A stretch of 58,847 nucleotides of DNA from the NCBI GenBank assembly GCA_002707685.1, contig PANQ01000008.1, positions 65,345 to 124,191 of the forward strand, in the 5' to 3' direction. Position numbers and translations under genes: made by a program. Below are positions 1 through 16,356 of this stretch, piece after piece. Numbering within the stretch: position 1 is the first letter of the stretch; every line of letters starts with the position of its first letter. Source of the stretch: Porticoccus sp. Its GTDB lineage: Bacteria; Pseudomonadota; Gammaproteobacteria; Pseudomonadales; Porticoccaceae. A model generated the notes under the pieces. It searched no databases. It saw only the letters and a program-made list of their open reading frames with translations, and was not told the DNA's origin.

Positions 1-2
1 AC

Positions 3-434
3 AACAGCCAGGTGAGCTACGGGCAGACCCGGGTGCAGGTGGTTTGGCAGCGGGTCATCCTACCGGACACCTCCTCGTTCCAACTCGACAACCTCGCCGG
101 TACCGACCCCGCTGGCTACACGGGTCTGGAGGACGGCGTCGACTGGCACTGGGACCGCCTGTTCGCAGGTGCCGCCCTGACCACCCTGCTCGGTGTGGGC
201 GCCGAACTGGCCGCGCCAGAGAATCGCCAGGACGGCGACCGCGTCATCATCGCCGGGCGGGACAGCGCGCAGGACAGCATCAACCAGGTCGGCCAGGAGG
301 TCACCCGCCGCAACCTTAATATTCAGCCCACCTTGACCAGCCGCCCAGGTTTGCCGGTGCGCCTGATCGTTAACCGCGACCTGGTGTTGCGGCCATACCA
401 ACCACTGATCTACCAGCGGGTGACTACGCCATGA
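3..434 (+). CDS. trbI: TrbI/VirB10-type conjugal transfer protein, 3' end only
   Basis: This is the C-terminal part (about 143 residues) of the inner-membrane-anchored channel protein that links the cytoplasmic ATPases of a type IV secretion system to the outer-membrane core. The frame is open to the left edge, so the gene is truncated by the window; the GTG at 12 is unlikely to be the real start. Visible family features are the VILPDTSSFQLDN stretch, the DWHWDRLFAGA segment leading into the periplasmic barrel, and the closing LPVRLIVNRDLVLRPY. The stop overlaps the next start (ATGA). The base composition is clearly GC-richer than the following defence operon. TrbI rather than VirB10 proper is inferred from the sequence type and the DUF2274 neighbour. 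Confidence 0.85.
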   Translation, partial: NSQVSYGQTRVQVVWQRVILPDTSSFQLDNLAGTDPAGYTGLEDGVDWHWDRLFAGAALTTLLGVGAELAAPENRQDGDRVIIAGRDSAQDSINQVGQEVTRRNLNIQPTLTSRPGLPVRLIVNRDLVLRPYQPLIYQRVTTP

Positions 435-833: not shown

Positions 834-849
834 GCAATCGGATACTAGC

Positions 850-1170
850 ATGGCGTCATACGGAAACCGAGATAATGCAACGGAGAACTCATTAGGCAAG
901 GCGTTAAAGACAATCAGGAAAGCGCGCGGCCTAAGCCAGGAAGCGTTCTCCAAGGTGTCCAGTCGTACCTATTTGAGTTCTCTGGAGCGAGGCTTGAAGA
1001 ATCCAACACTGAGCAAGATCGACGAACTCTGCCAGGTGATGGAGGTACATCCCCTGACATTGTTGGCATTGGCTTATGCCGGTAGGCGGGAGTTAGATGG
1101 AGCCGATGAAGTTTTAAAGAAAGCAGGACAAGAGTTACGGAATGTATTGAATGAGACAGATATTGTTTGA
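850..1170 (+). CDS. XRE-family helix-turn-helix regulator
   Basis: This is a 106-residue DNA-binding protein. Residues about 15-75 form a Cro/C1-type helix-turn-helix: LGKALKTIRKARGLSQEAFS, then SRTYLSSLERGLKNPTLSKIDELCQVMEVHP. The SxxYLSxLERGxxNPTL pattern is typical of this family. The C-terminal 30 residues are charged and probably helical. It stands alone between the conjugation genes and the DISARM-like operon, in the same direction, 86 bp before the methyltransferase. Small XRE proteins in this position often repress defence operons, so control of the downstream genes and of itself through the 822-833 palindrome is likely but inferred. Confidence 0.8.
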   Translation: MASYGNRDNATENSLGKALKTIRKARGLSQEAFSKVSSRTYLSSLERGLKNPTLSKIDELCQVMEVHPLTLLALAYAGRRELDGADEVLKKAGQELRNVLNETDIV

Positions 1171-1256
1171 GCTTCTCGTTGTAGTACAGGAATTTTCTGA
1201 CAGCACCGGGCGAAGCTGATATGGAATCTATAATAATCGACTGGACGCACTAATCT

Positions 1257-2990
1257 ATGGCTGTACCTAATAAGACCCGTTTCCAGCGATTTGTTCGTTT
1301 ACTAAATCACACCATGTGTGAACGTCAAGTTACAGCTGAAGCCTTAATCGGAGCAGCATTGTCGCGCTGGTGCAAACTGTCATTCCAAGGATTGCCTCGG
1401 TCAGGATTGCCAGCCCCTCTCGTTTTGCAGAACGATGCCACAGTAGTCGATTTTGTTGAGTTCATCAAATCGTATGACTTGTCAGAAGCAACATATTGGT
1501 TGGCGTCTGCTTATGCTCAACTGGTTGGACATATGCATCGCAAACAATTAGCAATGTTCTTTACTCCTCCTTCGCTTACCAAACGTCTGTTAGACGATTT
1601 GGAGGCTGATGGGGTCGATTTTACTGTTAATAGTTTCTGTGACCCTGCTTGCGGCGGAGCCGCTTTCCTGACTCCAATCGCCATGCGAATGCAAGATATG
1701 CTGCGAGCTAAAGGGGCAAGCCCGAAGCAAATTCTTAGGCATGTTCAAAAGCATTTATACGGAACCGATAAAGACAACATCTTATGCCGGCTCTCAAGAC
1801 ATTTTCTGCTCATGGTTTTGCATGAGGAAGTGATTACCTCTGGATTTATCCCAAAATTTCAGATTGCATGCGCCGATTCACTACTCCAAATGTCGCACTT
1901 GGAGGGGAAGTTGGACGTTGTTGTCTGCAATCCGCCGTTTCGTAAAATGAAATCTGAAGAAGTGAAGATGTATATCGATGGGTATTCGAAGATCGTCGAA
2001 GCTCAGCCAAACCTCTATGCGCTTTTTATGGCGCTTTGCGTAAATCTGCTCGCACCTCAAGGCAGATGTGCTCTGGTGACGCCCACGAGTTTTTTGTCGG
2101 GACAATATTTTTCAAAGTTGCGCACTTATCTCATATCCCATACTAAATTGCTTAGTATCGGCATGGTGAGTGATCGTTTGGGCGTTTTCATAGACGTTGA
2201 GCAGGAAACCGCTCTTACTCTTATGCAGCGCCAAGAAGGAGGAAATACCGTTGATGGAGTTGCGAGGGTATGTGTCGTATCTCGAGATGGGAAGTATGTG
2301 AATGTTGGGAAATGCTCGCTACCAAACTCTGGTTCGGCATGGCCCATTCCTCGGTCTGAAAGTGATACTGAACTATTACGTCGAGCGACGAAGTCCAAGT
2401 TTACCATTGTTGATTATGGCTATAAGGCTCGGATTGGAGCATTTGTATGGAACCGTGACCAGCGTCCTACCTATTTATCGGCAAAGAATGTTGCTAAGGC
2501 AAAAGCTATTTCAGCTATTCCACTCCTCTGGTCCAGTGACATAGCTTCTGATGGACGTTTGCGGTTCGATGGGTCCCCTAAGCTCAACAAGGAACCTTGC
2601 TTTGTGGACCTAGGCTCGAAGTCACACCAATCAATAGTTCGACACCCTAGCGTCATCTTGCAACGTGTAACCTCGAATGATCAGTCGAGGCGCTTAATTG
2701 CAGCAACTGTTCCGGATGAAATTCTAGAGACTTACGGTGGATTTGTTGGTGAAAACCATACGGTCATCCTAGAACAAACTGTGCCAGAGCCAGCATTGGC
2801 ACCTGCGCAATTGTCCCTTTTGCTAGGTTTATCAATAATCGATAGGTGTTTTAGGTGTATATCTGGAGCAACGAATGTGTCTATTTTTGAGCTTAAGCAG
2901 TTACCTCTGCCAAACCCCGATAAGTTGAAAAAACTTTTATCGGAGGGGCGTGATTTCGAAGAAGCAGCACAGAGTGCTTTTGGAAATTAG
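1257..2990 (+). CDS. drmMI: N6-adenine DNA methyltransferase of the DISARM-like operon
   Basis: Predicted 577-residue class I SAM-dependent DNA methyltransferase that would mark host DNA by methylating adenine N6. The SAM-binding motif reads DPACGG at residues 129-134, preceded by QLAMFFTPPSLTKRLL, the usual lead-in of N6 methylases. The catalytic motif is NPPF at 225-228. The region after residue 330 resembles a target-recognition segment and lacks motifs I can name. It is the first gene of the operon, 37 bp before the 937-residue gene, and no restriction nuclease is adjacent. In DISARM class 1 the methylase is an adenine methylase (DrmMI); class 2 uses a cytosine-C5 enzyme. The DrmMI assignment rests on motif type and operon position; the short length could mean a distinct subfamily. 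The bases are AT-richer than in the trb genes. Confidence 0.75.
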   Translation: MAVPNKTRFQRFVRLLNHTMCERQVTAEALIGAALSRWCKLSFQGLPRSGLPAPLVLQNDATVVDFVEFIKSYDLSEATYWLASAYAQLVGHMHRKQLAMFFTPPSLTKRLLDDLEADGVDFTVNSFCDPACGGAAFLTPIAMRMQDMLRAKGASPKQILRHVQKHLYGTDKDNILCRLSRHFLLMVLHEEVITSGFIPKFQIACADSLLQMSHLEGKLDVVVCNPPFRKMKSEEVKMYIDGYSKIVEAQPNLYALFMALCVNLLAPQGRCALVTPTSFLSGQYFSKLRTYLISHTKLLSIGMVSDRLGVFIDVEQETALTLMQRQEGGNTVDGVARVCVVSRDGKYVNVGKCSLPNSGSAWPIPRSESDTELLRRATKSKFTIVDYGYKARIGAFVWNRDQRPTYLSAKNVAKAKAISAIPLLWSSDIASDGRLRFDGSPKLNKEPCFVDLGSKSHQSIVRHPSVILQRVTSNDQSRRLIAATVPDEILETYGGFVGENHTVILEQTVPEPALAPAQLSLLLGLSIIDRCFRCISGATNVSIFELKQLPLPNPDKLKKLLSEGRDFEEAAQSAFGN

Positions 2991-3027
2991 TCACTCATAA
3001 GCTACTCCCTATATCAGGACAAGTCCT

Positions 3028-5841
3028 ATGGCGCGTAAAGACAAGTTCAAAGATCTAAAGGAGGCGGAGAAGCAGCGGCAAGAGGCGAAACAAAACGCGC
3101 TGAATTTACTCGCCAGAAAGAAGCAGCGCAATCCTGATCTTGTGTCAAAAACGATAGGCCCATCTCGTAAGAATAAGGAAAAGCAGGAGGGCAAAGAAAA
3201 ACAGAAGCCGAAACCTTTACCTCCGATTATTCGACGAGTCCAGAGTTCGTTGATAGATTTATTTCGAGACGAAGATGAATTCCCGAGTACCCCATCCAGC
3301 ACATTAGTTGAATTGGCAGATTTGTATCTATATGCAGCCGAATATCGCTCACGACACATTGCGCTTGTATGGCCGGCTACGTTGAAGACATTAACATTAG
3401 TGCATGCGTTGGCGACTCTGGCACGTTGGCAAGAAGGAGATAAACAAGGCATCAGAGGGGTTCTTTTTCCAGTAAAGACGAATGTGTTCTATCCCCTTAA
3501 TCATATTCATTTCGATCGAACTGCAGTACTAGATATAGCAAATAGACTGGCCGAGGTGTCCCCCAACAGTTTAGTTAAACGCTCTTTTCCTGATAAAGAT
3601 GCTTACTTCTACTCCTTCAGTGACGCCAGTTTACCAAATGCTGAGGGGAAGCATTTCAATCCAACCATAGGAGAGTTATTGCCTAGCTTTCTTGCTACAC
3701 CTGAGTTTGAAAAATGGGAACCCTGCACTGACAAGCTGCTTGCGCTTATACGTACTAAGTTGGTGAAGCGAGCACATGCTAAGTCCTTGAAGGAGTTGCA
3801 GTGCAAAGTCATAGGGGCCCCGAGGTCGGCTCCAGATGCTTTATTCGCGCTCGATGGCCGAATGTCGGATGAGGAGTTGAATAAGGCGCTCAAAGAACTT
3901 GCTGGTCTCTCTCCACCTGAGGTGGTGCTAATTTCTGCTACACGTGCTGTTCGATTGGAGGCTCCCGGTTGGAAGGGGAGAATTGCACGTTTCTGCATGG
4001 CGCTAGAAGAAGTTTTTTATGAAAAACCTCCCGGTGTGATTGTTGTCACGGATGAGCCTCATTCGGCATATAAGCTGAAGGATGAACTCTGGAAACGTAA
4101 CAATAAGCGTGAGCCAGATCTACGTTGGAAAACACCTCAGCATTTTAAGATTGATGGTTTCCCAAGTACTGTCGGAGCTGAAGGGCTATTGTCTAAAGGG
4201 GTATACGAATGCCTGCATCCCGTTCCAAAGGAGTTCGAAGTCTATATTGTCGATTCGGATGTCGCTAAAGTTGCCAATAAATTGACGCGGATTGCTAGAG
4301 GTACTCCTGGGGGGAGAGAAGGAGCCAAACCCCTAGTGGATGCAGCGGCGTATGTATCACGTATTGCTGCTCTTCCATGCGGTATAAAGCACTTATCCGA
4401 ATACTTATCAGGGCCTGATGTAGCTGCGCACACCCGAGTAGCTTTTGATTGGCTTACTCAAATTAGTGTGCTAAACCAATTTGATCGTGACGTGGGAGTT
4501 GGAGAAAGCCGTTCCGCATTGATGGAATGTATAGATAAAGGCTCTGAGCTGTTCGCCAGCTATCAAGAAGCAACTCCTTTTGCTCACAAATTGGCTGAGA
4601 TCGTAGCAAATGCAATTAAAGGAAAAAAGCACGAGGTCACCGTCGTGTTTACCAGTGCCCTTTATCGTAGATTGGCGGAGCGCTTTCTAGCGGAGTACCG
4701 TCAATATCCAGGGGGTATCTTATTCGATGCCTTCAGAGACCGCGTTCATCTTATTTCAGCTACACATTTTGAAGAACATCTGGGACAGAGTGAGAGGTCT
4801 ACACTTGTCTTTGCAGGTCTGAATGAAGTTTGTCTGAGATTAGTTCTTACCGATGATCGAGTGCCTGCACACTCAGTGATTCTCCTCACACAACGAGCAG
4901 GTCAGTTTTTGCGTGCCTCTCTAAAACCCATTATTGAAAATTTCTCAGAATTTAGATCTTTTAAGCCGCGAATTGAATCAATTCTTCGTCAATTAAAGGA
5001 CCTTCCGAACGATGCATCAGTTTTGTCTACCAGTGACTATACTTTGCCTACCTTTCGTGTAGATCTTTCCGGGGAGGTATCCGCTGAATACAAGGGTATC
5101 GATCCTGATGCATGGATCATTCGACTGGATAATGGCACTACTCAGTATCGACGAGAAAGCTCTGAGGTCTACGTTTACGATCCTACATCATTGCACTCAT
5201 CAGACCGGGGATTCAGAGTCTGCCAAATCAAGTCATTAGAAGTGGGTGACAAGCTGTTTGTTATGTCGGCTGAACTGCGTGAAATGGTTGAGCAAGTGCT
5301 ACGTGAGGCTGGTGTTCCTATTCATACAGATAAGACATTTGAAGAGGCATTGCGCAGCTATCATGAACAAGTACAAAAGCGCTTCACTGAAAAATTCTCG
5401 GAAGGTACGCTTGCCGATAACGCCAGGGAGCTGCGTAAGCGAATCCTCGATACTGATCCTAGGTTGGAAACTGATTTACCGAAGGAGGCGTCAATACGAC
5501 AGTGGATAGATCTGGGTGAATCGCCAAATACTCCTTTCGAGGAGCTTCGACCACAAGCCCCACGAAGTGAAGCAGCCTTCAAAGCATTTGCAGATATTTT
5601 AGGGTTTTCTCCCTTGGAAGCAGCATATCAATGGCAGCGCGTTATCATGGCTGTTCGAAACTCACGCCGACTGGATGGTCGACATATCTCAGATATCTAC
5701 GCTTATATGCTATTGCAGCCCGAGTCAGTCATGACCAACTCCAATATCAAACGACAGACACTTACACTATTGTTCGATCACGCTCGTGAGAGCGTGGCAA
5801 CCATCGAATGGATTAGCTCTGTCAAGGAGCAGAATATATGA
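3028..5841 (+). CDS. Large uncharacterised DISARM-associated protein (possibly DrmE-like)
   Basis: A 937-residue protein I cannot place with certainty. Residues 1-70 are very Lys/Gln/Glu-rich and likely a basic coiled segment. The body has a hydrophobic strand-like stretch (HIALVWPATLKTL, around 111-123), a DEPH tetrad at 342-345 within VIVVTDEPHSAY that resembles a helicase motif II, and a later VTVVFTSALYRRLAERFL segment reminiscent of a second RecA-like lobe. No Walker A GKT/GKS motif is visible, so it is not a SNF2 helicase such as class 1 DrmD. Its stop overlaps the drmA start by four bases, so it is translated with the core genes. Position and size suggest the DrmE role of class 2 DISARM, but that is inferred. 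Confidence 0.6.
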   Translation: MARKDKFKDLKEAEKQRQEAKQNALNLLARKKQRNPDLVSKTIGPSRKNKEKQEGKEKQKPKPLPPIIRRVQSSLIDLFRDEDEFPSTPSSTLVELADLYLYAAEYRSRHIALVWPATLKTLTLVHALATLARWQEGDKQGIRGVLFPVKTNVFYPLNHIHFDRTAVLDIANRLAEVSPNSLVKRSFPDKDAYFYSFSDASLPNAEGKHFNPTIGELLPSFLATPEFEKWEPCTDKLLALIRTKLVKRAHAKSLKELQCKVIGAPRSAPDALFALDGRMSDEELNKALKELAGLSPPEVVLISATRAVRLEAPGWKGRIARFCMALEEVFYEKPPGVIVVTDEPHSAYKLKDELWKRNNKREPDLRWKTPQHFKIDGFPSTVGAEGLLSKGVYECLHPVPKEFEVYIVDSDVAKVANKLTRIARGTPGGREGAKPLVDAAAYVSRIAALPCGIKHLSEYLSGPDVAAHTRVAFDWLTQISVLNQFDRDVGVGESRSALMECIDKGSELFASYQEATPFAHKLAEIVANAIKGKKHEVTVVFTSALYRRLAERFLAEYRQYPGGILFDAFRDRVHLISATHFEEHLGQSERSTLVFAGLNEVCLRLVLTDDRVPAHSVILLTQRAGQFLRASLKPIIENFSEFRSFKPRIESILRQLKDLPNDASVLSTSDYTLPTFRVDLSGEVSAEYKGIDPDAWIIRLDNGTTQYRRESSEVYVYDPTSLHSSDRGFRVCQIKSLEVGDKLFVMSAELREMVEQVLREAGVPIHTDKTFEEALRSYHEQVQKRFTEKFSEGTLADNARELRKRILDTDPRLETDLPKEASIRQWIDLGESPNTPFEELRPQAPRSEAAFKAFADILGFSPLEAAYQWQRVIMAVRNSRRLDGRHISDIYAYMLLQPESVMTNSNIKRQTLTLLFDHARESVATIEWISSVKEQNI

Positions 5842-8800
5842 ATCAATCTGTAGTCCGAGATGACCCCGCCAAGATTTCATCCACCTTGAAGGAAGCAGTG
5901 GTTGATAGCATTCTTAACCTGACTTATGCGCAACTGAGCGGCCAGGGCTCCACGGGGCAGTATTTGTTCGGAGCCCGCCCAAGGGCGCTCTTGAATTCTG
6001 GTTTTCTCTTGCCGCAACGTAACCCGTCTGGCGACGACGAGGTGACTTCACCTATCTGGGTTTCATCACACGGGCTGCAGATGCAGCTAAATGCGACATC
6101 TCCTTCGGTGATAACAATTCAGCCGCAGCTTTCATTGTATGTGCGTGTCTTACCGCATGAAAAGGATCTCAAGCGCCCCAACTGCAGGCCAGTCTTCATG
6201 TTGCGACAAGCTGTGATTGATGAACTCAAAGCCGAGCGTAACAAACGTTTGGATGAAGAGTGGGAGAAGGCCAAAGGCACATACACTTCCAAGTGGAAGC
6301 ATCCGGGCTGGCTCGAAATTCGCAAAAAGGTTGTTGATGAAGTATATGCTGCCAAGGGTATCCCAAGGCATTTGCTGACCTCTGACTTACCACAGGAAGC
6401 TACTGAAACTGAAGCAGGTGGCGATACTGGAGGAGACGAGTCAGGTGATACGCTGAAAGAAGCATTTCCCGTTACCGCGCCTGGAACGCCTCCAATCAAG
6501 GATGAACATTTTGAACCCCTAGCAGTTCCTCACAAGTGGATGCGTTTGGAGGTTGACCTCCCTGCGCTTGAACTGGATACCTCTAGATCCAGTGTTCAAC
6601 TTCAACGCGACGCCGATGAGCATGCTGGGCGTATGAACGATGCCATCGTCAAACGGTTGGATGAATGGGTTCATAGCGATGATCCAGAGACAGGAGGAAA
6701 GGAGTGGGGATATCGTCGCCAGCTCACCATTCCAGCTAGCCAGTACACCAATTGGCTAGACTTCCTCGACAGAGTCCGAAAGTCTGACTTACCAATAGCT
6801 ATTCCAAATATTCAGCTTAATTGGGATATTCAATTTAGTACTGATTGGCTTGATAGTTCGAGGTGCAACTTGTTTGTAGCACTGGAGAATGTTAGCCAGG
6901 CTCCTCGCCAGCATGTCGACGAGACCGAAGAAGCTGTCTTTCTCGTATCACTGCGCTCTCAGTTGCCATCGGCGGATCACCACTCGCTAAGGCTGGAGCG
7001 CATCAAGCCTTCATACCGATTCAACAAATACCTTAACTATCCGGCAATGGGACATAACTGTGGGGTTGTTCGCGTAGAATCAGAGCCTGAACTTTCAGTG
7101 TTAGAAACCACTTGGACTCCACGCTACATACAGCCACGTATCGTGCCGACCAGTGCCAATGGAGTAAAACGGAAAGTGCGCCTGCTTGCGAAGCCTGAAG
7201 GCCTAAAAGGAATAGAGCCGCTCGTGCCAGCCATGCAGGCATGGATGGATACGTTACCTGGTGAGGTGAATCCTAAAGAAGGACTTGATTCATCTGATAG
7301 CGAAGGCATCGCACGAGAGACGGAGGCTTTACGGTCGGATATTGTCAAGTGGGCAGCAGAAATGAACTCGATCGCGGCTGGGCTTGAATGCTTACGAGAG
7401 TCCAAGTCGGTATGGCAAGAACGAGGGCAACAATCGAATCCAAAAGCTATCGTCTACGAAGCTTGGCTTGCAATGAACGAAGCGATGGCTGACTTCATGC
7501 AATCGCGATTCAAGCACGACAATAATGAGTGGCGCCTTTTCCAGCTGGCCTTCATCATTGCTAATATCCCAGCGCTGGCCTCCCGTATCAAAGAGTTTAG
7601 CCATTTCTACGACGAGCGTCGCGATGACGCTGTTACCCTCCTGTACTTTGCCACGGGTGGAGGTAAGTCTGAGGCATTTTTCGGCTTGCTCGTCTTTAAC
7701 CTGATGCTCGACAGGCTACGCGGGAAGCAACGCGGTGTTACCGCATTGATTCGTTATCCATTGCGGTTGCTCACGATTCAGCAGGCACAACGTTGTGCTC
7801 GTGTGCTCGCTTGGGCTGAACGTGTGCGCCGACGGTATGAATACTCTGGTGATAGGTTGTCCATCGGTTTTTGGGTAGGGAGTGGAGGTTCGCCGAACCG
7901 CCACAATACAAAAGGCGTCAAAAGCATCCCTCAAGTCACAACTACGCCGCCAGGGTTGACGGATGAGGAGGGACTTCGGGAGGACGACGCGAAGTACTCC
8001 GCCGCACTGCGCGCTTGGAGAAAGCTGCCCAAGTGCCCGTTTTGCCAGGAAGAAACTGCGCTCCGTCTGTTTGTTGAGCACGGTGACCAGACGCTTGGGC
8101 ACGTCTGTACCGATATTCAGTGCGATTCTAATCAGGGGCAATGGCAGCCGCTGCCGTTCTACATCGTTGATGAAGACATCTATGATCTAGCGCCATCCGT
8201 ACTGCTCGGTACGGTCGATAAACTGGCACTTATTGGACATTCCAGTCGGACCATTCGACGCATTTATGGCATGTTCGGAGCCGCGCCATGGTTCAAACCT
8301 GCCAATGGGCGTCTCTATATCCCTGACAATAAGGAGCTTGCCCTGGGGCCAGAAACCAAAGGTATGGAGGGTGTGTATCCCGCTTATAAATCGGGGCAGA
8401 GGATATTTCATGACCCTTTTCCCAGTCTTACTATTCAGGATGAGGCGCACCTACTTGATGAGTCATTGGGTACTTTCGCGGGGCTATTCGAGTCGACGCT
8501 AGATGCTGTTTTCGAATACCTAGGCAAGCCGCTGAGTGAGTTTGTTGCAGTTGATCCTCAAGGGCGACGTCGACGAGCCAAGATTATCGCTGCATCAGCG
8601 ACGGTTTCAGATCCGGAGCGGCAGCTAGAGCACTTGTACCAACGTTCAATTCCAGCCACGCAGTTTCCTGAGCCAGGGCCTTCGCTATACGGGTCTTTTT
8701 ACGCAGAGCCTGCGGAGGCTGCCGTCGAAGAAGTTGCTCGGCGAGCCAATCCAAATATCGAAGTTGCCAGCCAACAAGCTCGTGTGTATACGGCGTTCAT

Positions 8801-10043
8801 GACTAATGGTAAGCCTCACACCTCGACAAGTGTGGCGGTTCTTTCAGGCTTCCACTTGATCATCACGCGTCTGTTCGACAGCCTTGTGAGTGGCGATGAC
8901 CATCAGCTCAGGTTAGTGCAACAGCAACTGGCCGATCACGTATCGCCGGGGCCAATTCAAGGACTACACAAGGAAGTTCTGTTGGCGGCAAGTGCTTCGG
9001 AACTCGTAACACTCGTCGATTTGCATCGTATCGCACTGACTTATGTAACTAATAAAAAGGGTGGCGATCAGATTATGGCCGCCGAGGCAGAGGAGACACG
9101 TAAGCGTCATCTCAACGAAGGCATCGAACTGGCTGGGATCGACACAAGACTCATTACAGGCTCAGTGGAGCAGGGTGAAATTCAGGCAGTGGTGGACACA
9201 GCTCAGCTGCGCGTGGATCCGGGGCAGCCTCTTTCGCCTATCCGCGAGCAATTACGCTCCGTCATCGCCACATCTGCCATCTCGCATGGTGTTGATGTCG
9301 ATGAGTTCAACTCAATGTTTTTCGCCGGTATGCCCTCAGATATCGCTGAATACATCCAAGCCTCGTCACGTGTCGGGCGTATGCATATCGGCTTCGTTGT
9401 ATTGCTGCCAACGCCACAACGCCGTCGCGACCGTCATATTGTCCATGTCTTTGATATCTTCCATCGTTTTCTTGAGCGTATGGTTCAGCCCGCGGCTATT
9501 GATCGCTGGGCAGAACGTGCCATTGAACGTGTGTTTCCGAGCCTTTTTCAGGCATATATGCTTGGAGTATTGCCAAGTCACGAATTGCTACGTCTTCCGG
9601 AGAATGAAAAGAATAAGACACCGGACTTCACCATCATTCCGAATGTGCGAAGAGAGCTCTCCAGAAGAGGAGACGCTCTCATTGACGAAATCAACCGATT
9701 TATCGAACTTGCGGTAGGTCTGCGAGGTGGTTTCGCTCCCGAAGGAGAAGATCACTATCGTCAACGAATCGACCAGCGTACGCGGAGCCTTATCGTGGAT
9801 ACATGGAGCAGCCCGCTCTGGGGTAGTGGCACGATGGACGGCTATTTCAAGAGTCAGACAGATTTGTTATTAAAGCCGATGACGTCGCTACGAGATGTCG
9901 ATCAAGGAGGCATCATTCAAGTTTCATCCCGCGACGGGGGAGGGCGTAAGCAGTTGTCAGGCGAAGTTCAGATGGTGATGGACTTGATTCGTCACGGTGT
10001 CGCTAACAACGATGGCACGGATAACTCACAGGCAGGAGACTGA
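5838..10043 (+). CDS. drmA: DrmA-type superfamily 2 helicase (DISARM core)
   Basis: This 1401-residue helicase is the largest core component of DISARM and acts with DrmB on incoming unmodified DNA. The N-terminal 580 residues are family-specific. The helicase core follows: Walker A ATGGGKS at 605-611, DEAH at 868-871 inside IQDEAHLL, SAT at 920-922, and motif VI QASSRVGR at 1174-1181. A CPFC...HVCTDIQC cluster between motifs I and II is a probable zinc-binding insertion of a kind seen in DrmA/DUF1998-associated helicases. It starts inside the stop of the preceding gene (ATGA) and ends one base before the drmB start, so the operon is tightly coupled. DruE of Druantia also combines a helicase with DUF1998, but here the two are separate proteins, which fits DISARM. 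Confidence 0.88.
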   Translation: MNQSVVRDDPAKISSTLKEAVVDSILNLTYAQLSGQGSTGQYLFGARPRALLNSGFLLPQRNPSGDDEVTSPIWVSSHGLQMQLNATSPSVITIQPQLSLYVRVLPHEKDLKRPNCRPVFMLRQAVIDELKAERNKRLDEEWEKAKGTYTSKWKHPGWLEIRKKVVDEVYAAKGIPRHLLTSDLPQEATETEAGGDTGGDESGDTLKEAFPVTAPGTPPIKDEHFEPLAVPHKWMRLEVDLPALELDTSRSSVQLQRDADEHAGRMNDAIVKRLDEWVHSDDPETGGKEWGYRRQLTIPASQYTNWLDFLDRVRKSDLPIAIPNIQLNWDIQFSTDWLDSSRCNLFVALENVSQAPRQHVDETEEAVFLVSLRSQLPSADHHSLRLERIKPSYRFNKYLNYPAMGHNCGVVRVESEPELSVLETTWTPRYIQPRIVPTSANGVKRKVRLLAKPEGLKGIEPLVPAMQAWMDTLPGEVNPKEGLDSSDSEGIARETEALRSDIVKWAAEMNSIAAGLECLRESKSVWQERGQQSNPKAIVYEAWLAMNEAMADFMQSRFKHDNNEWRLFQLAFIIANIPALASRIKEFSHFYDERRDDAVTLLYFATGGGKSEAFFGLLVFNLMLDRLRGKQRGVTALIRYPLRLLTIQQAQRCARVLAWAERVRRRYEYSGDRLSIGFWVGSGGSPNRHNTKGVKSIPQVTTTPPGLTDEEGLREDDAKYSAALRAWRKLPKCPFCQEETALRLFVEHGDQTLGHVCTDIQCDSNQGQWQPLPFYIVDEDIYDLAPSVLLGTVDKLALIGHSSRTIRRIYGMFGAAPWFKPANGRLYIPDNKELALGPETKGMEGVYPAYKSGQRIFHDPFPSLTIQDEAHLLDESLGTFAGLFESTLDAVFEYLGKPLSEFVAVDPQGRRRRAKIIAASATVSDPERQLEHLYQRSIPATQFPEPGPSLYGSFYAEPAEAAVEEVARRANPNIEVASQQARVYTAFMTNGKPHTSTSVAVLSGFHLIITRLFDSLVSGDDHQLRLVQQQLADHVSPGPIQGLHKEVLLAASASELVTLVDLHRIALTYVTNKKGGDQIMAAEAEETRKRHLNEGIELAGIDTRLITGSVEQGEIQAVVDTAQLRVDPGQPLSPIREQLRSVIATSAISHGVDVDEFNSMFFAGMPSDIAEYIQASSRVGRMHIGFVVLLPTPQRRRDRHIVHVFDIFHRFLERMVQPAAIDRWAERAIERVFPSLFQAYMLGVLPSHELLRLPENEKNKTPDFTIIPNVRRELSRRGDALIDEINRFIELAVGLRGGFAPEGEDHYRQRIDQRTRSLIVDTWSSPLWGSGTMDGYFKSQTDLLLKPMTSLRDVDQGGIIQVSSRDGGGRKQLSGEVQMVMDLIRHGVANNDGTDNSQAGD

Positions 10044-10044
10044 T

Positions 10045-12270
10045 ATGGCGACAAGAAGAACATTTCTCGCATCGGAGGATGACGAGAAGGCACTTAGCGC
10101 TCCTACGATGGCTCGTTCGCGCAACCAGCTGGGGTCCGCGTACGCGCCTGGGGCGTTCTTTACCTTCGAAGGGGGGCTTGGCGCATGTATATCAATTCCC
10201 GACCTCTCGGCATCCGTCGACGATGCGCCGATCAGACCTGAGACCAAGGCGCAAATCATTCTTCGCCTGCAGGAGGTCTGGCAGAGCTGGTTCGCTCGCG
10301 CCTACTCAATGAGTACCTCTGATCGACAAATCGATCCGCATCAATGCCTCGATGAGGCGCTTCTCAGTGGTACTTCTGTGGTGCCGCTTGCTGGTGATCG
10401 TCTAGCATTCCTAAGTCCGCTTCGGATGGGCTATGCTCCTGCTCCGCTGACCTTTGTGTGTAACAAGTGTCATCTGTTTAAGAGATTCGAGTCGGCCTCT
10501 GATCTGTCCAAAAACATAGGTTCTCTCCGCAATACTCAATGCACTGCAGCGGGAGCAACCGGTCCATGCCAATGGCGCCAGCTTGACGTAATTTTTGTGC
10601 ACTGGTCAGGTGAATGGATGCCCGCTACCCCTGGGCGCTGGGAGTGGAACAATCGCACCGACGACGCGTGGTTGTATGGAGAGGAATGCACGGTATGTGG
10701 GGGTAAAGCCTTTAAACTTAATACCGATTCACCAAGAATTGGTCAGTGGCACTTCTACTGTGCTAATCCGACTTGCGGGCATAAGGGTAGCAACGAATGG
10801 CGCCAGAATGACCGATTCACTACAGGAGTCTTCCGCGATCGTGCTGGTGCGCGAATCGGAGAGCGCCGCATGGAACCAATCTCCTACCGCGCGTCATCAG
10901 CATATTATCCCCAAGCCGAGCAGTTTGTGCTCTTTCCTGAGACGGAGCACCAACTCATAACTCTTCTTGAGCCACAGATGCATGCTGAGTTGGCTGCCTT
11001 TATTGCGACCAAGTTTCACTTTGGTGGCGCGGAGCTTACGCCCGACGAGATGAAGGAGGCTCTACTGGCGGCAGGCAAGGCTAGCGAGTGGGAGTCCTAC
11101 GAAACTATCGACCGCATGCGAAGAGACGCTGAAGCCAGGGGTGATACTGAAGTGCTCAATCTCATGAATGGTGAGCTCCGAAAGCTGGTTACTCGCTGGA
11201 CTACAAGCGACCCACCATTAGTGCGACCCAGCGTCGATTTGCCTTCTGCCGTGATGGTGCAACTGGCGAATCGCAGTGAATATACTAGTCGGTTCGATCC
11301 GTTTGTCTTGGCTGTGGAACATGAAGCACTTAATCGGGGAAAACTTTCGGCTGCACCCGATGGGGGGCGATCTCCGTTTGTGCGCTTTAATCATCTCGAT
11401 AACGACTTGGCGCCGAAGGATGCAACTGTCAAGCATGCCCAGGAAGCGGAGACACAACACCTGATGGATAAGCTCGGGTTGGACGACCTCGGACTGATTC
11501 GCGAATTTGACTTGTGTCGTTTCACGCACGGTTACACGAGGGTGTCGACAACGCCCACCTTTGAAAAACGTGGGCAGAATATGCCGGTTCGGTTACGACT
11601 ATTTGAGCCTCTACGCAATGGACAGCGGCCGATTTACGTTGTGACCCAGGCCAATGAGGCTCTGTACGTCCGGCTGGACCCTAAAGTCGTATACACGTGG
11701 TTACAGGCAGTTGGTGTGCACGATCTGCCAGAGTGGGACGGTGACGAGTCGCTACTGTTGGGTGGACGACTGTTACAAGTGGCGCAGCCATTCGGACGGT
11801 ACTTCTCCTTGCTCAGAGAGGATGATGCATCGACCTATCGATATGTTTACACGTTGTTGCATACATATGCACACGTGCTTATGAAGAATGTCGCGGAGCT
11901 GTCTGGACTGGACCTAGGCTCGATGGGTGAATACATTTTCCCGTTGGATCTGGCATTTGTCGTATACCGGAATGGTACGACGATGGACCTTGGAAACCTG
12001 TCCTCTCTGTGGCGTAACGAGAACAACCGTTTTCTGTCGCGGTTGCTTGAGACTTCTACACACCGCTGCAACTCTGGAAGACTTTGCGATGGTGCTGGTG
12101 GAGCATGCCCGGACTGCATAATGATTCCCGAGACCTCGTGTGTTGCGCAGAACCAGCTATTGTCACGCGCCGTGCTCAAAGGCGGACCAGCACCACGGGA
12201 AGATGCAACCCACAAGGGACAGCGGATCCGAGGTTTTCTAGAAGTAGTCAACGAAGATTATGAAAACTGA
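10045..12270 (+). CDS. drmB: DrmB-type DUF1998 protein (DISARM core)
   Basis: DrmB (741 residues from this start) is the DUF1998 partner of DrmA; the two form the DNA-engaging DISARM core. A longer frame opens at 9997 inside drmA, but the ATG at 10045 has an AGGAG site 7-11 bases upstream and follows the drmA stop directly. Cysteine pairs suggest zinc sites: VCNKC (C139, C142), ECTVCGG, and FYCANPTCGH. The DUF1998 C-terminal signature is clear, with four cysteines at 675, 681, 688 and 691 (HRCNSGRLC ... CPDC). The stop lies inside drmC by an 11-base overlap. Assignment is by domain plus gene order helicase-DUF1998-PLD, which is diagnostic for DISARM. Confidence 0.87.
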   Translation: MATRRTFLASEDDEKALSAPTMARSRNQLGSAYAPGAFFTFEGGLGACISIPDLSASVDDAPIRPETKAQIILRLQEVWQSWFARAYSMSTSDRQIDPHQCLDEALLSGTSVVPLAGDRLAFLSPLRMGYAPAPLTFVCNKCHLFKRFESASDLSKNIGSLRNTQCTAAGATGPCQWRQLDVIFVHWSGEWMPATPGRWEWNNRTDDAWLYGEECTVCGGKAFKLNTDSPRIGQWHFYCANPTCGHKGSNEWRQNDRFTTGVFRDRAGARIGERRMEPISYRASSAYYPQAEQFVLFPETEHQLITLLEPQMHAELAAFIATKFHFGGAELTPDEMKEALLAAGKASEWESYETIDRMRRDAEARGDTEVLNLMNGELRKLVTRWTTSDPPLVRPSVDLPSAVMVQLANRSEYTSRFDPFVLAVEHEALNRGKLSAAPDGGRSPFVRFNHLDNDLAPKDATVKHAQEAETQHLMDKLGLDDLGLIREFDLCRFTHGYTRVSTTPTFEKRGQNMPVRLRLFEPLRNGQRPIYVVTQANEALYVRLDPKVVYTWLQAVGVHDLPEWDGDESLLLGGRLLQVAQPFGRYFSLLREDDASTYRYVYTLLHTYAHVLMKNVAELSGLDLGSMGEYIFPLDLAFVVYRNGTTMDLGNLSSLWRNENNRFLSRLLETSTHRCNSGRLCDGAGGACPDCIMIPETSCVAQNQLLSRAVLKGGPAPREDATHKGQRIRGFLEVVNEDYEN

Positions 12271-13108
12271 TCTGCTAGCCGCCTTCGATGCTCTTGCTCC
12301 TCTGTGCGAGGTGGGGGCTCCACTCTGTGAGATGGCTAGTGTTGATGCACTTGATATGCCGTTAGAACTGAGGGCTATCTGTACGCGCATCGGTTTACCA
12401 CACGCTCGTGCAGGCGATGTTGAACGCGCTCTGATAGCTGGGCAGGCGGTAGGAATATTTTCAAAAGCGACAGAACTAACGTGGCGCGTGCATGAGAAAT
12501 CTCTAGCTTCGCAGATTGCTCCACTATTGCGTGGCGCGTATCTCTACCGTAGCAGGGTTCATTGCGACGAAGACCGGGTCGATGTGGTGCTAACAAAGCC
12601 ACCGGCACCAAGTCAGGTATCTGTTCAGCTTGAGGGCATGCTCTCAGGAAGTTGGGGGCTAAGGGATACAAAGCAATTGCTACCTGCTATAGCTGAGTCT
12701 GCACACTCGTCTTTTGTTGTCATGACTCCATATCTTGATGATGTTGGAGCTGTAATCGTGCTCAACCTATTCGAACGAGCCAATGTGTCGGACATGTGTC
12801 TCATCCTACGAGCGACCTCAGAAGGCCATGCTCCGCCAGGTCTTACTGGCGTACAAGATGCGTTGCATGACCTGGGTGTCACAGTGTTAAACTTTCGTCT
12901 TGAGCGGCCAGGCGCTTTGGGTAATGAAACGTTTCATGCAAAGGTGGTACTTGCAGACAACGTATCGGCTTATGTGGGGTCATCCAACATGCACAGATGG
13001 TCATTCGAATATTCGCTCGAGCTTGGTTTACATGTACGTGGCGGCGCAGCGAAACGCATTGCCGATATACTTCAGTCTGTTAGGGTAGTCTCGAGCGTGA
13101 TGCCGTAA
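12260..13108 (+). CDS. drmC: DrmC-type phospholipase-D-family protein (DISARM)
   Basis: A 282-residue phospholipase-D-superfamily protein, the third core DISARM gene. The single HxK motif is FHAKVVLADN (H226, K228), followed by AYVGSSNM with N243, the typical second half of a PLD active site. Upstream, SSFVVMTPYLDDVGA marks the first strand of the fold. Only one HKD half-site is present, so activity would require a dimer, as in other one-domain PLD nucleases. The start overlaps drmB. DrmC is described as dispensable for protection in the Bacillus system, so its role may be accessory. No further gene follows in this direction, so it probably ends the operon. Confidence 0.85.
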   Translation: MKTDLLAAFDALAPLCEVGAPLCEMASVDALDMPLELRAICTRIGLPHARAGDVERALIAGQAVGIFSKATELTWRVHEKSLASQIAPLLRGAYLYRSRVHCDEDRVDVVLTKPPAPSQVSVQLEGMLSGSWGLRDTKQLLPAIAESAHSSFVVMTPYLDDVGAVIVLNLFERANVSDMCLILRATSEGHAPPGLTGVQDALHDLGVTVLNFRLERPGALGNETFHAKVVLADNVSAYVGSSNMHRWSFEYSLELGLHVRGGAAKRIADILQSVRVVSSVMP

Positions 13109-13407
13109 TGTCAGCGGCTATACGGGAAAAGTACTCGTCTGAGGTATGGATTTTAGTAGAAGCACCTTTGTTTGAAGTAGGACCGTGACGGTATTTTTCC
13201 GACGGTAAAGCCGATAGTCAGCCATTTTTAAATCCTTTACCTTCAATGGGTTAGACCCCTCGTTGATGATTGAGTGGGCCATGTCTATCGGCAAGTCGTT
13301 TTTATACCAGTATCTAGGTTGGCCGCGTTTCCGGTTATGACATTTGACTTCCCGTTGCGCGCATAGGCTGGGTCGTCGATATCGATAGCTCACGGCGCCC
13401 CCAATCT
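13109..13407. other. Intergenic stretch between convergent drmC and abiEii
   Basis: About 300 bases with no gene I can support. The minus strand has an open frame of 91 codons (13118-13393, GTG start) with no recognisable domain and no ribosome binding site. A decayed gene or the convergent terminator region of the two operons would both fit. Confidence 0.4.
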
Positions 13408-14439
13408 CTACTTTGTACCTGTTGTGGATTCGTTGATGGCTTTTTCGATGGCGGCACAGGCCTCCAGCAGTGCATCAAATGGCAGTGCTTCTCCAACCAT
13501 GACGTCGTCAGCCATCATGGCTTCATAATCCTTGGCAAGTGCGGTTTTCGCATCGCCGTCTGGAACAATTTTCAGCCTTCCCGTTGTCGCGGCGATATAG
13601 TCAATGACTTCGCCTTCTGTGTCTTTTTCGATGAAGAAGTGCGCCTTGTGCTGCGCGACAGTTGACGCGACAGTGTGGTCTGATATGACCGTAGTGTAAT
13701 GGTGGCTTCGACTGATCGCAGCCAGATCGTGCCAATGTCGAGCATACCGCTCTCCACGAAGACGGCCCTGGGCGCAGAACACGTGGGCAGCCGTCGCTTT
13801 TTCCCAGAACGTTCTGGCCAGGCTCATGACCTGTGGTGATGCACTGGGGAATTCGATCTCAGCCAAGTGCTCGGCAATGTCGCATTCTACGGAGTGTATT
13901 TCGTGCGGTTCACCGGTTGCCCTACCGCCGAATTCCAGTGTGACAACCGGGGCAATATACCCTGTGCCCTTGGTGAGGGCGGGGTAGCGGAGCATCAGTT
14001 TGTCGTTATCCTTGCCGCCCTGCTCAAGTTGCGCTTGGAGTCCCTCTTTGGCCAGTGCGGCTTCTATGACAGGTTGAATATGTGTCGTGATCCAATCGGG
14101 TAGACGATGACGCACAGCTTTCGTCCACTTGCCGGCCTGGCTGCGACTGCGAGGTAGCTCACCGCTTTCACCTGTCAGGTCGGGAATCAATTTGCGGATG
14201 TCGTAAGTCAGGTCGATGTCTTCTGAAAAGCGGTCAATGACCTTGTAGGCCTTGGAGAGGGATGTGCCACCCTTGAAGGTTAGGTCAGCGCCTATTGCCG
14301 CGTCGAATAGTGTGCGAAGTGTCCATACCACCCAGATATCCTTTTCTAATAGATGGGCAGGGCGCCCGGTTTCCGCTCGCGCGTATTCAATCGCCTCTCT
14401 TTGGTCTTTCTGGCTAAGCTCAAAAAAACTTTCAGGCAT
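13408..14439 (-). CDS. abiEii: AbiEii nucleotidyltransferase toxin
   Basis: Toxin of a type IV toxin-antitoxin / abortive infection pair. AbiEii proteins are nucleotidyltransferases of the polymerase-beta fold. The hallmarks are TFKGGTSLSKAYKVIDRFSED: the GGTSLSK loop, then SEDIDLTYD carrying the paired acidic residues. From the ATG at 14439 the product has 343 residues, and this start (MPESFFELS) overlaps the abiEi stop by eight bases, as usual for the pair. The frame extends upstream to 14490 without support. Antitoxin first, toxin second on the minus strand is the canonical order. It sits between the DISARM-like operon and the integrase, in a defence cargo zone. Confidence 0.88.
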   Translation of the reverse strand: MPESFFELSQKDQREAIEYARAETGRPAHLLEKDIWVVWTLRTLFDAAIGADLTFKGGTSLSKAYKVIDRFSEDIDLTYDIRKLIPDLTGESGELPRSRSQAGKWTKAVRHRLPDWITTHIQPVIEAALAKEGLQAQLEQGGKDNDKLMLRYPALTKGTGYIAPVVTLEFGGRATGEPHEIHSVECDIAEHLAEIEFPSASPQVMSLARTFWEKATAAHVFCAQGRLRGERYARHWHDLAAISRSHHYTTVISDHTVASTVAQHKAHFFIEKDTEGEVIDYIAATTGRLKIVPDGDAKTALAKDYEAMMADDVMVGEALPFDALLEACAAIEKAINESTTGTK

Positions 14440-15028
14440 GTGCCGCTTCCTTCCCAATTGCCTGTGCCATCCAGGAAGGCAGGGCAGCACGAGCCGAGGC
14501 CAGTGCCTTCCATTCAGCCGGGGGAAGGGTGCGATGCAGCGATGCCAGGGATGTATCGGCGTGTGCCGATCCGATCCAGGCCAGTGCTCTCACGGCTTCG
14601 CCGGCAGGCCGGGTTCCCAGGACCAGCATCCAGCGCGGGGCGTGTTTGACCAAAATTTCCCCCTTGCCCAGCTTGAGTTTTCGAGTGCGGCCGGAGGTCA
14701 GGTAAACCTCTTTGATGGGTACCTGTTGGGTCAGACCCAGGGCGTTGGCTGAATTGGCGCCGTGTCGAACGACGATTTCCCCACTTCGCTTCGCCAGCGA
14801 GCTTATGACTTTTTCAGGGGAGGGCGCGCGCGATCCAAACCTGCTGGATACCGGGGCAACGTAGGTGCCACGCGCCACGCGCATCAGTTTGCCTTCCTTG
14901 GTCAGCCGTGAGAACGCCTGATCGACGGCGGCCCGGCTTCCCAGGTGCAAGAATTCTTTGGGCGACAGCACACCACCCTCGGGGAGGGAGCGGGCACGTC
15001 GAAGGATGGTTTCTGGCAAAGTCTTCAT
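14432..15028 (-). CDS. abiEi: AbiEi-type antitoxin / transcriptional repressor (DUF6088-like)
   Basis: The antitoxin of the AbiE pair. The N-terminal region PETILRRARSLPEGGVLSPKEFLHLGSRAAVDQAFSRLTKEGKL is a winged-helix DNA-binding domain, followed by RGTYVAP and a C-terminal antitoxin domain with IVVRHGANSANALGL. AbiEi proteins repress their own operon and neutralise AbiEii without a stable complex. I place the start at 15028 (MKTLPETI, 198 residues) rather than the upstream ATG at 15079. A -10 box TATACT (15060-15055) and an inverted repeat (15042-15080) lie between them, so the upstream ATG would sit outside the transcript. No strong Shine-Dalgarno is visible at either start. Confidence 0.83.
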   Translation of the reverse strand: MKTLPETILRRARSLPEGGVLSPKEFLHLGSRAAVDQAFSRLTKEGKLMRVARGTYVAPVSSRFGSRAPSPEKVISSLAKRSGEIVVRHGANSANALGLTQQVPIKEVYLTSGRTRKLKLGKGEILVKHAPRWMLVLGTRPAGEAVRALAWIGSAHADTSLASLHRTLPPAEWKALASARAALPSWMAQAIGKEAAHA

Positions 15029-15041
15029 TGGTGGCGCCTCT

Positions 15042-15080
15042 ACATGATGTAAGAAGTATAACTCAGTTTCTGACATCATG
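15042..15080 (-). promoter_or_regulatory. Candidate abiE promoter with an inverted-repeat operator
   Basis: Perfect 8-bp arms CATGATGT (15043-15050) and ACATCATG (15073-15080) lie 30 bp apart centre to centre, about three helical turns. A minus-strand -10 box TATACT lies between them (15060-15055). AbiEi of Streptococcus is known to bind inverted repeats in its own promoter, so this is a likely autoregulatory site. Binding here is inferred. Confidence 0.5.
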
Positions 15081-15159: not shown

Positions 15160-16356
15160 TTAGATTTCCGTATTACCTGATTTGAACCCGGTTATGATCT
15201 GGCGTCGGTTTGCCACCAGTTCGGCGGCTTCCCGCACCGGATCATCCTCGACATGAACGTATCGCATGAACATGGTCACGGTTTTGTGGGCAGTCAACGC
15301 CATACCCACTTTGATCGGGACACCTGAATTGGCAATGTCGGTGGCAGCGCGATGCCGTATGCCATGTGTGCCAACAAGGGGGATGCCGGCCCTTTTCAGT
15401 ATGCGGCGCCAGGCGCCATAGTAGGCATTTTGGGTCAACGGCTTGTTGGGATCTTCCAGGGCAGGGCAGACGTACGGCGATTTGCTGTGGATTGCGGCAT
15501 CAGAGAGCAGTTCGTAGGCTTCCGAGCTGATAGGTTTGGACATGTCACCGGTTTTGCTGTCGGGCCAGACGACTCGGCGACCGACCAGGTCTACCCACTC
15601 CCATTGTAGCGCCAGGATTTCTGACATCCTGGCGGCAAAGGCAAACTGGAGTCGGATGCCGAGAATTGGGGAAGGGTGTTCAAGCTCCTCTTTTTCCGCT
15701 TTATCCAGCTGCCTGAATAGCTGGATCATCTCTTTGTCGGTAAGCAGTCGGGTTTTGCCTTTCTCGGGGAACTTGGTCACGTGTCGGCAAGGATTGGTGC
15801 CATCCGGGCGGTACCCCCAAAGTTCAGCCAGGTTGAACATTTTGCGAACACAAGCCAGTATCCGGTTAGCCTGGGTGGGTGTTTTTTCCAGGCGCTTCAT
15901 GAGCGCCAAAATATCTGCCCGTTCCACCTCGTGGACTTTCAGGGTGCCCATGGAGGGGAGAAGATATTTATCGATATGGTACTGGTTTTTCTTTTGGGTA
16001 AGTGGTTTGTTGTGCGGTATACAGTGATCTTCCATAAAGCGTTTGCATAGATCCTTAACCGTCGGGGCTTGCCGATCCCTGGCTTTTTGGCCTGAAGGGT
16101 CATTGCCCCGGCGTACGTCCGCCAGCAAATCCTGAGCGAGGGTGCGGGCCTGTTCGACAGTCAGCTCGCCAAACAGGCCAAGAGACGGCTTGCGTCGCTT
16201 GCCACTGTTTGTGCGATACTGGAGCATGAAAACCTTGCGTCCGGTTGGGGTGATTTTGCAGAAAAATCCGGGGACGAGGGTATCCCTCAATTCAATGTCG
16301 GTCTCTCCCGGTTGGGCACCGGCAACGATGGTTTTTGTGAGCTTTACTCGCGGCAT
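15160..16356 (-). CDS. int: Tyrosine recombinase / site-specific integrase (DUF4102, P4-type)
   Basis: This 398-residue integrase excises and inserts the island at a tRNA gene. Residues 1-95 match the DUF4102 arm-binding domain (LTKTIVAGAQPGETDIELRD, then GRKVFMLQYRT and KPSLGLFGELTVEQAR). Residues 100-195 are the core-binding SAM-like domain. The catalytic domain has the full set R243 (FAARMSEILALQW), H331 and R334 (GTHGIRHRAA), H357 and the nucleophile Y366 (MRYVHVE). It is not an integron integrase: the IntI-specific insertion is absent and the architecture is phage/island type. It lies next to the tRNA-Leu fragment it probably recognises, and its transcription runs into the island, away from that junction. 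Confidence 0.92.
   Translation of the reverse strand: MPRVKLTKTIVAGAQPGETDIELRDTLVPGFFCKITPTGRKVFMLQYRTNSGKRRKPSLGLFGELTVEQARTLAQDLLADVRRGNDPSGQKARDRQAPTVKDLCKRFMEDHCIPHNKPLTQKKNQYHIDKYLLPSMGTLKVHEVERADILALMKRLEKTPTQANRILACVRKMFNLAELWGYRPDGTNPCRHVTKFPEKGKTRLLTDKEMIQLFRQLDKAEKEELEHPSPILGIRLQFAFAARMSEILALQWEWVDLVGRRVVWPDSKTGDMSKPISSEAYELLSDAAIHSKSPYVCPALEDPNKPLTQNAYYGAWRRILKRAGIPLVGTHGIRHRAATDIANSGVPIKVGMALTAHKTVTMFMRYVHVEDDPVREAAELVANRRQIITGFKSGNTEI

Follow-up and report, generated by a model that had tools for sequence, protein, structure and literature searches.

A DISARM-type operon of Porticoccus sp. with an adenine-type methylase and a probable, highly divergent DrmE

Introduction

To which class of DISARM, if to any, does an operon belong that joins the DrmABC core to an adenine-type DNA methylase and a large protein without an evident family? 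This question is raised by the locus at positions 1257-13108 of a 58,847-nucleotide stretch of Porticoccus sp. (Gammaproteobacteria; assembly GCA_002707685.1, contig PANQ01000008.1, positions 65,345 to 124,191 of the forward strand), the whole of which is called the window below. In the excerpt of the PADLOC paper available to us (PMC9252829), type I DISARM is listed as A, B, C, D and MI, and type II as A, B, C, E and MII; the class definitions used here follow that excerpt. By its predicted products the operon belongs to neither class so defined: it has a class-2-like backbone in which an adenine-type methylase other than DrmMI stands for the cytosine one. We consider it quite probable that the locus is a DISARM-type system directed against phages or mobile DNA, that it represents a distinct lineage with the mechanism of DrmABC, and that its 937-amino acid (aa) protein, here called P3, is a divergent DrmE.

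Results and Discussion

Gene content and organisation of the operon

Five intact open reading frames (ORFs), all on the + strand, make up the operon. The first (1257..2990, 577 aa) encodes a predicted N6-adenine DNA methylase with DPACGG and NPPF motifs, and the second (3028..5841) encodes P3, which has a basic N-terminal tail (21 lysines or arginines against 9 aspartates or glutamates in the first 66 residues) and a DrmE-like C-terminal region. They are followed by the genes for DrmA, a YprA-like superfamily 2 helicase with motifs I, II, III and VI (5838..10043, 1401 aa), for DrmB, a separate DUF1998-type partner with a C-terminal cysteine cluster (10045..12270, 741 aa), and for DrmC, a PLD-type nuclease with a single HxKx4D motif (12260..13108, 282 aa).

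A preliminary description of the locus, made from the sequence alone, had recognised a DISARM core in the tight order of the last three genes and an adenine-type methylase in front, and both assignments were upheld by profile searches. PADLOC named DrmA (1.2e-83, 279 bits), DrmB (1.9e-17) and DrmC (2.2e-11), gave no family for P3 and did not match DrmD, while the methylase matched the Pfam families N6_Mtase (9.6e-17) and Eco57I (1.3e-15). NCBIfam returned DISARM_DrmAS (2e-104, 350.6 bits), DrmB_fam (5.3e-14) and DISARM_DrmC_I (1.2e-12), all of them under the curated cut-offs (950 bits for DrmA), which fits an outlying lineage. DrmC also matched Pfam PLDc_2 (2.5e-7), and DrmB matched no Pfam family. 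When the operon products were searched by sequence against the PDB, the single match was that of DrmA to the DrmA of the cryo-electron microscopy complex 7s9v (2.1e-43).

The same description gave gene contacts of 4, 1 and 11 bp, which were borne out, and took them to show co-translation, for which they are only suggestive. The methylase gene and P3 are separated by 37 bp; the overlap is of 4 bp between P3 and drmA and of 11 bp between drmB and drmC. The drmB ORF (9997-12270) opens at a GTG at 9997; an alternative ATG at 10045 sits behind a GCAGGAG ribosome site and is the likelier start, with which the drmA-drmB gap is 1 bp. The overlaps suggest translational coupling.

Several features of DrmA and DrmB were conserved in the relatives described below. 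A pattern search of 13 DrmA proteins found motif VI in all 13, DEAH in 12 and motif I in 10, and the four cysteines of a zinc module located between motifs I and II (C733, C736, C757 and C762 of the window protein) were present in every one. The DrmB cluster C675/C681/C688/C691/C699 was found in 13/13 proteins compared (12 loci plus the additional locus L071, the split DrmB of L011 being left out). DrmA of the window also carries an acidic loop at approximately residues 184-220, whose counterparts in the relatives vary in length and sequence and are mostly acidic, that of L009 being not acidic (7 acidic against 8 basic residues). As in class 1, where the trigger loop of Serratia DrmA comprises residues 176-232 according to the published account (PMC9142583, seen as an excerpt here and below), the loop lies at a similar position, and this nearness is no more than suggestive.

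Recurrence of the operon in Proteobacteria

Relatives were taken from genome contigs (five loci), from plasmids and from genomes sampled from the same class and phylum. After the near-identical locus L003 and repeat views of one locus had been dropped, 13 distinct loci were retained (the window, L004-L013, L027 and L028). Four plasmid records were found by P3 and at least six by near-full-length DrmA (36-51% identity), this DrmA scan covering the best 60 of 84 matching records and 7 of the 9 in which 80% of DrmA was covered. The operon was present in 2 of 369 genomes of the class sample and in 3 of 398 of the phylum sample, the window's own genome being counted in each. DrmA matches above 200 bits occurred in 15 of these 398 genomes, four of which are P3-type (G000, G741, G659 and, by DrmABC alone, G452). 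L071 encodes related DrmA (55% identity), DrmB (52%) and DrmC (35%) on a contig that ends before the P3 slot.

P3, drmA and drmB stand together in all 13 loci, with IS66 genes interrupting drmB in L011. An N6-type methylase directly precedes P3 in 12 of them; eleven, with the window counted, are clear relatives of the window methylase, and that of L010 is related to it distantly (21.8% over 372 aa; Pfam Eco57I 1.8e-20) and stayed below detection by BLAST at 1e-3. L009, on a plasmid of Rhizobium phaseoli, has no methylase before P3 and has a 425-aa N6 methylase downstream on the opposite strand; the latter sits behind ORFs that look by eye like transposases. A PLD-type drmC is present in nine loci (annotated at only 186 aa in L012 and 175 aa in L013), and elsewhere it is a frameshifted remnant (L004), is split by an IS66 element (L005), has been swapped (L007) or was not found (L011). 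All five genes are together and unbroken in 8/13 loci. Because P3-drmA-drmB recur in every locus and the five intact genes in eight, the association goes beyond chance.

Pairwise identities of P3, DrmA and DrmB covary closely (r 0.99, 11 loci). The hosts are gamma-, beta- and alphaproteobacteria, and six of the 13 loci are plasmid-borne. The occurrence of sister copies on plasmids and on chromosomes suggests that the operon is a stable, separate lineage, which recurs in three proteobacterial classes despite fitting neither part list. Among viral contigs, two scans gave no relative of P3 and one scan gave no relative of the DrmE of locus L029, all with short-peptide-pattern seeds that may miss distant relatives.

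Identity of P3

In the DrmE-bearing loci L014 and L040, drmE lies directly before drmA, which is the position of P3. A profile of the 13 P3 proteins was compared by hhalign with profiles of proteins from the DrmE slot, and it matched five of them at 93.6% (P 2e-7, 344 columns) and nine of them at 96.3% (P 1.6e-9, 171 columns, corresponding to P3 residues ~693-896). Two separate subsets of P3 gave 95.2% and 89.9% against the DrmE profile. The controls remained low, both with reversed profiles (DrmE 0.2 and 0.4%, P3 0.2%) and with other proteins (methylase 0.1%, DrmB 0.0%, DrmA 0.2%, two DrmD 0.1%). Eight of the nine reference proteins (from L014, L015, L019, L029, L030, L036, L037, L039 and L040) match DrmE in NCBIfam or Pfam: NCBIfam DrmE_fam reached L014, L029, L030 and L040 above its cut-off and L015 and L019 below it, and Pfam DrmE_C reached L014, L015, L039 and L040 above and L036 below. 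Because P3 occupies the DrmE slot before drmA and matches the DrmE profile with clean controls, it is probably a very divergent DrmE.

A number of results speak against this identification. At E<=0.01 the window P3 had no match in PADLOC or NCBIfam, its one Pfam match being a sub-cut-off HAD entry; PADLOC returned nothing for it and six relatives at E<=1, NCBIfam no DrmE for it (E<=0.01) or for the six relatives (E<=1), and Pfam DrmE_C was unmatched by any of 11 P3 members at E<=1. The library models likewise yielded no DrmE candidate across the whole genome. The ninth reference protein, that of L037, matches DrmE in neither Pfam nor NCBIfam and owes its place in the set to its slot and neighbouring genes. 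In a search of 22 sequences with a model built from the nine references, the window P3 scored 9.7 bits (E 2.4e-4) and the highest-scoring P3 15.0 bits. The strongest profile match extends over the C-terminal part only, the N-terminal half being unmatched. The AlphaFold models of P3 were poor, with predicted local distance difference test (pLDDT) values of 45.4 and 49.7, probably for lack of diverse sequences, and a Foldseek search with the second of them gave nothing at E<=1e-3, its best hit (E 0.18) being not interpretable. A search of the PDB sequences with the P3 profile found nothing below E 0.88.

P3 might therefore be a protein unrelated to DrmE that took over the same slot, in which case the operon, with a new subunit, would represent a genuine third class of DISARM. 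The silence of every library DrmE model and the confinement of the match to the C-terminal part agree with this, as does L073, where the slot directly before drmA is held by an unrelated UvrD helicase (L073:7219-9732; Pfam 6e-25; 0.1% as an hhalign control). We nevertheless regard it as unlikely, given a profile match of 96.3% against at most 0.4% for every control, the similarity of P3 to DrmE in length and slot, and the presence of DrmE or a DrmE-slot protein in five of the six loci whose DrmA is sister to the P3-type group. Two other identities were rejected, namely DrmD, because of the 0.1% obtained by hhalign with two DrmD proteins, and a HAD fold, the Pfam match being under cut-off. The divergent-DrmE identification is the one retained below.

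Three observations on DrmE-like proteins may be added. The middle of P3 resembles by eye a degenerate RecA pair, about which no claim is made. On a Priestia plasmid (L018:5585-8056) three small genes precede drmA, the last of them matching DrmE_C (1.2e-6), and together they look like a split DrmE. The 1792-aa protein of L030 (4613-9991) combines weak, sub-cut-off AAA matches in its N-terminal part with a C-terminal DrmE match, and so looks like a DrmE extended by an ATPase-like portion.

The methylase

PADLOC assigned the methylase to its generic MTase_II (1.4e-164), and the best NCBIfam match was to the Alw26I/Eco31I family, at 70.1 bits against a cut-off of 353.5 bits. Matches to PglX were weak (1.4e-13 in PADLOC; 50.8 bits in NCBIfam against a 500-bit cut-off). 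The NPPF/Y motif was found in 12/12 of the methylases and motif I, by pattern search, in 8/12; from the motif order we take the enzyme to be of the gamma type. With 577 aa it is far from the size of DrmMI (1340-1533 aa). In BLAST against seven DrmMI-slot proteins its best E value was 0.004, the profile match covered 118 columns of the methylase core, and DrmMI was not among the PADLOC matches listed for it (25 of 60). Judged by family and motif, the enzyme is of the adenine type and is not DrmMI. The operon contains no cytosine-C5 methylase, and the one C5 methylase match in the genome lies on another contig (C13).

The methylase could also belong to an Alw26I/Eco31I-like restriction module that merely lies before a DISARM core and stays outside the defence complex. 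Its best NCBIfam match points in that direction, as do L009, with no upstream methylase and another N6 methylase downstream, L010, with only a distant relative, and the looser covariation of the methylase with DrmA (r 0.89, against 0.99 for P3 and DrmB). This explanation appears improbable, because an N6-type methylase directly precedes P3 in 12/13 loci, the gap in the window is of 37 bp, and no separate restriction enzyme family was matched among the five products.

A parallel for the exchange of methylases is L015, on a plasmid of Streptomyces cellulosae, which resembles the window operon in having a non-cytosine methylase (N6_N4_Mtase), a DrmE-slot protein (DrmE_C 1.2e-14) and DrmABC. There, unlike in the window, the methylase is of another family and is divergently transcribed, and DrmA falls in the sister set and not in the P3 clade. 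Because L015 carries an N6_N4 methylase of a different family beside its DrmE-slot protein, it seems that the cytosine methylase was exchanged on more than one occasion. These genes (L015:3351-20541) lie near TnsA-like and transposase genes.

Phylogeny of DrmA and relation to known systems

A maximum likelihood tree of 31 DrmA proteins was rooted at the midpoint; it has several long branches and does not fix the order of the classes. The 13 P3-type rows formed one clade (100/100), which joined six rows on a branch of their own (94/98), the joint set being supported at 100/100. Slot or annotation places five of these sister rows (L014, L015, L019, L036 and L040) in the drmE group; in the sixth (L035) no DrmE was seen. 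The five drmD-labelled DrmA rows of class 1, among them L033, which has no DrmD within the fetched stretch, fell into a clade of their own (100/99), placed among further drmE loci. Removal of four long rows left this picture unchanged.

The core of the operon is that of DISARM: a YprA-family DrmA, a separate DrmB with DUF1998-type cysteines and a PLD-type DrmC. With class 2 it shares a DrmE-slot protein directly before drmA, followed by drmB and drmC. Class-2-like loci with a C5 methylase were found complete in L040 and L019, without a listed PLD gene in L037, and with an extra P-loop protein between DrmE and DrmA in L029. Unlike class 2, the operon has a compact N6 methylase in place of the cytosine-C5 DrmMII, a probable DrmE that lies beyond the library models and was reached by profile-profile comparison, and a DrmA of ~1400 aa in its own clade. 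It is like class 1 (DrmD, DrmMI and DrmABC; 7s9v) in its adenine-type methylation, split DrmA and DrmB and PLD-type DrmC, and differs from it in having no SNF2-like DrmD among its five products, no methylase of DrmMI size and a DrmA outside the class 1 clade. DISARM operons with both an adenine and a cytosine methylase have been described in Serratia (PMC9142583) and in a Nitrospirae bin (PMC6329791), as far as the excerpts available from these papers go; the only methylase of the window operon, in contrast, is of the adenine type. Since class 1 has adenine methylation and these two operons carry both kinds, adenine methylation within DISARM is not new in itself.

The proposal that the arrangement was a hybrid or a third one thus held in part: the operon fits neither textbook class and combines the chemistry of both, but it is no hybrid by descent, the methylase being other than DrmMI. 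The 937-aa protein was correctly taken to be large and unrelated to the SNF2-like DrmD; as a fifth gene of unknown kind it did not stand, a remote DrmE being its most likely identity, which makes the backbone class-2-like. The position of DrmA in one clade apart from class 1, beside drmE-group rows, agrees with this. Two outcomes had been named as overturning the first reading, a match of the 937-aa protein to DrmD and a better match of the helicase and its DUF1998 partner to some other known system, and neither was obtained.

The second of these outcomes concerns the systems that share the YprA family with DISARM, which are ARMADA, Druantia, Dpd and BRIGADE (PMC12458937, consulted as an excerpt, on which the statements on ARMADA rest). 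Apart from the YprA helicase common to all of them, ARMADA types I and II also have an adenine methylase, and the window methylase shows weak PglX matches, all below cut-off. Membership of any such system is nonetheless very improbable. The DrmA models, at 279 (PADLOC) and 351 bits (NCBIfam), scored far above DruE (20 bits) and DpdJ (12 bits), and no ARMADA model was among the matches, whether or not these libraries include one. None of the five products is a BrxHII-like helicase or a GajB-like protein, the methylase is far shorter than PglX, and a PLD nuclease stands where ARMADA has a Vsr nuclease. Helicase and DUF1998 partner on separate genes, a separate PLD nuclease and a zinc module before motif II correspond to the layout given for DISARM in that source. 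In the open-licence literature searched, by titles and abstract openings, we recognised no description of a methylase, P3 and DrmABC arrangement.

DrmC and the exchange of nucleases

The HxKx4D motif (residue 226 in the window) was found in all ten PLD-type DrmC proteins, those of nine loci and of L071. In the P3-type operon of Pseudomonas sp. 2FG (L007:19182-20363), approximately 99 residues of DrmC (62.6% identical) are followed by the Shedu domain SduA_C (4.1e-23), with no PLD. This fusion was seen in 1/13 loci only, the window keeping its PLD-type DrmC, and no description of it was recognised in the titles and abstract openings of the open-licence literature searched. DrmC has been reported, in the part of the paper seen, to be not essential, with recruitment of other nucleases proposed (Bravo 2022, PMC9142583). 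The swap in L007 and the losses in other loci fit a DrmC that is a dispensable and exchangeable nuclease, and the fusion suggests what its N-terminal part is for.

Proposed mode of action and meaning

The operon quite probably works like DISARM. The explanation builds on what was seen in this lineage, namely its gene content, conserved active-site motifs, recurrence, DrmA monophyly, probable remote P3-DrmE homology and mobile setting; helicase loading, autoinhibition and self-marking are borrowed from the published DISARM account (PMC9142583). By analogy, the adenine methylase would mark host DNA as self, and DrmA and DrmB would form an ATP-driven helicase complex that the acidic, trigger-like loop and methylation hold off host DNA. 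DrmAB would load on phage DNA that exposes single strands while entering the cell or replicating, block its replication and call in the DrmC nuclease (PLD, or Shedu in one relative) to degrade it. P3 may be a constant accessory, perhaps, in view of its basic N-terminal tail, a DNA-binding adaptor between DrmAB and either its targets or the readout of methylation; its role, like the motif methylated, is our conjecture, and the role of DrmE is left open in the published excerpts consulted. Some observations sit less easily with a working DISARM: the pattern search missed motif I in 4/12 methylases, and motif I in 3/13 and DEAH in 1/13 DrmA proteins, and in 4/13 loci DrmC is disrupted, exchanged or missing altogether.

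A bolder reading, possible but on balance doubtful, is that the lineage constitutes a third DISARM class, carried through the Proteobacteria by plasmids and conjugative elements and defined by DrmABC, a strongly diverged DrmE and an adenine methylase of its own, with the N-terminal part of DrmC as a docking module for unrelated nucleases (PLD or Shedu). If so, DISARM would sense the absence of either 5-methylcytosine or N6-methyladenine, and the nuclease would be an exchangeable warhead. As the lineage satisfies neither PADLOC part list in the excerpt cited above (PMC9252829), such rules would be expected to leave it unclassified. With a DrmE backbone uncoupled from cytosine methylation, one could also test directly whether DISARM responds to the kind of methylation or to its mere presence.

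Genomic setting

The operon lies to the right of a conjugation cluster. On the record extending to the left of the window (L081, whose position 15346 is window position 1), matches to a type IV secretion coupling protein, a T2SSE-type ATPase, TrbL, VirB8, CagX and TrbI were found. The last gene of this cluster is trbI (TrbI 8.1e-60, L081:14487-15776), whose 3' end occupies 12..434 of the window on the + strand. On the other side, a tyrosine integrase (15160..16356, - strand; Phage_integrase 2.7e-20, Pfam) follows. With Porticoccus sp. NORP89 (L003), positions 1-15089 share 99.7% identity, the match ending just before the integrase gene. To the left the similarity extends through the conjugation genes at 95.0% over 14,090 bp; this comparison overlaps the beginning of the window and takes in masked bases, of which all of L081 has 126. 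At 24-34 kb of the window the identity to the NORP89 genome is 83-94%, this genome (G012) being a draft, 86% complete and 5% contaminated, for which mis-binning is possible. Unless the draft is mis-binned, the contrast between 99.7% over 15 kb and 83-94% at 24-34 kb indicates a joint and recent transfer, and it is very likely that the operon travelled with the conjugation genes as part of an integrative conjugative element. Neither the window nor L081 has a tRNA gene that would mark an integration site.

That the operon is a decaying remnant without function, as the damaged relatives (drmC split by IS66 in L005 and frameshifted in L004, drmB split by IS66 in L011) might suggest, is most improbable with five intact ORFs inside those 15 kb of near-identical sequence in a second Porticoccus genome.

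Two further elements flank the operon. Upstream, on the + strand, an XRE-type helix-turn-helix regulator of 106 aa is encoded at 850..1170 (Pfam HTH_3 1.1e-10; PADLOC HTH_VI 3.2e-13). In the other 11 loci with an upstream methylase, BLAST (E 0.01; ORFs of at least 60 aa) gave no relative of it, and as it is present only in the window among these 12 loci it was rejected as a member of the module and is probably a local addition. Downstream, between drmC and the integrase gene, an AbiEi/AbiEii type IV toxin-antitoxin pair is located on the - strand at 13408..15079 (AbiEii 3e-99 and AbiEi 6.4e-66 in PADLOC).

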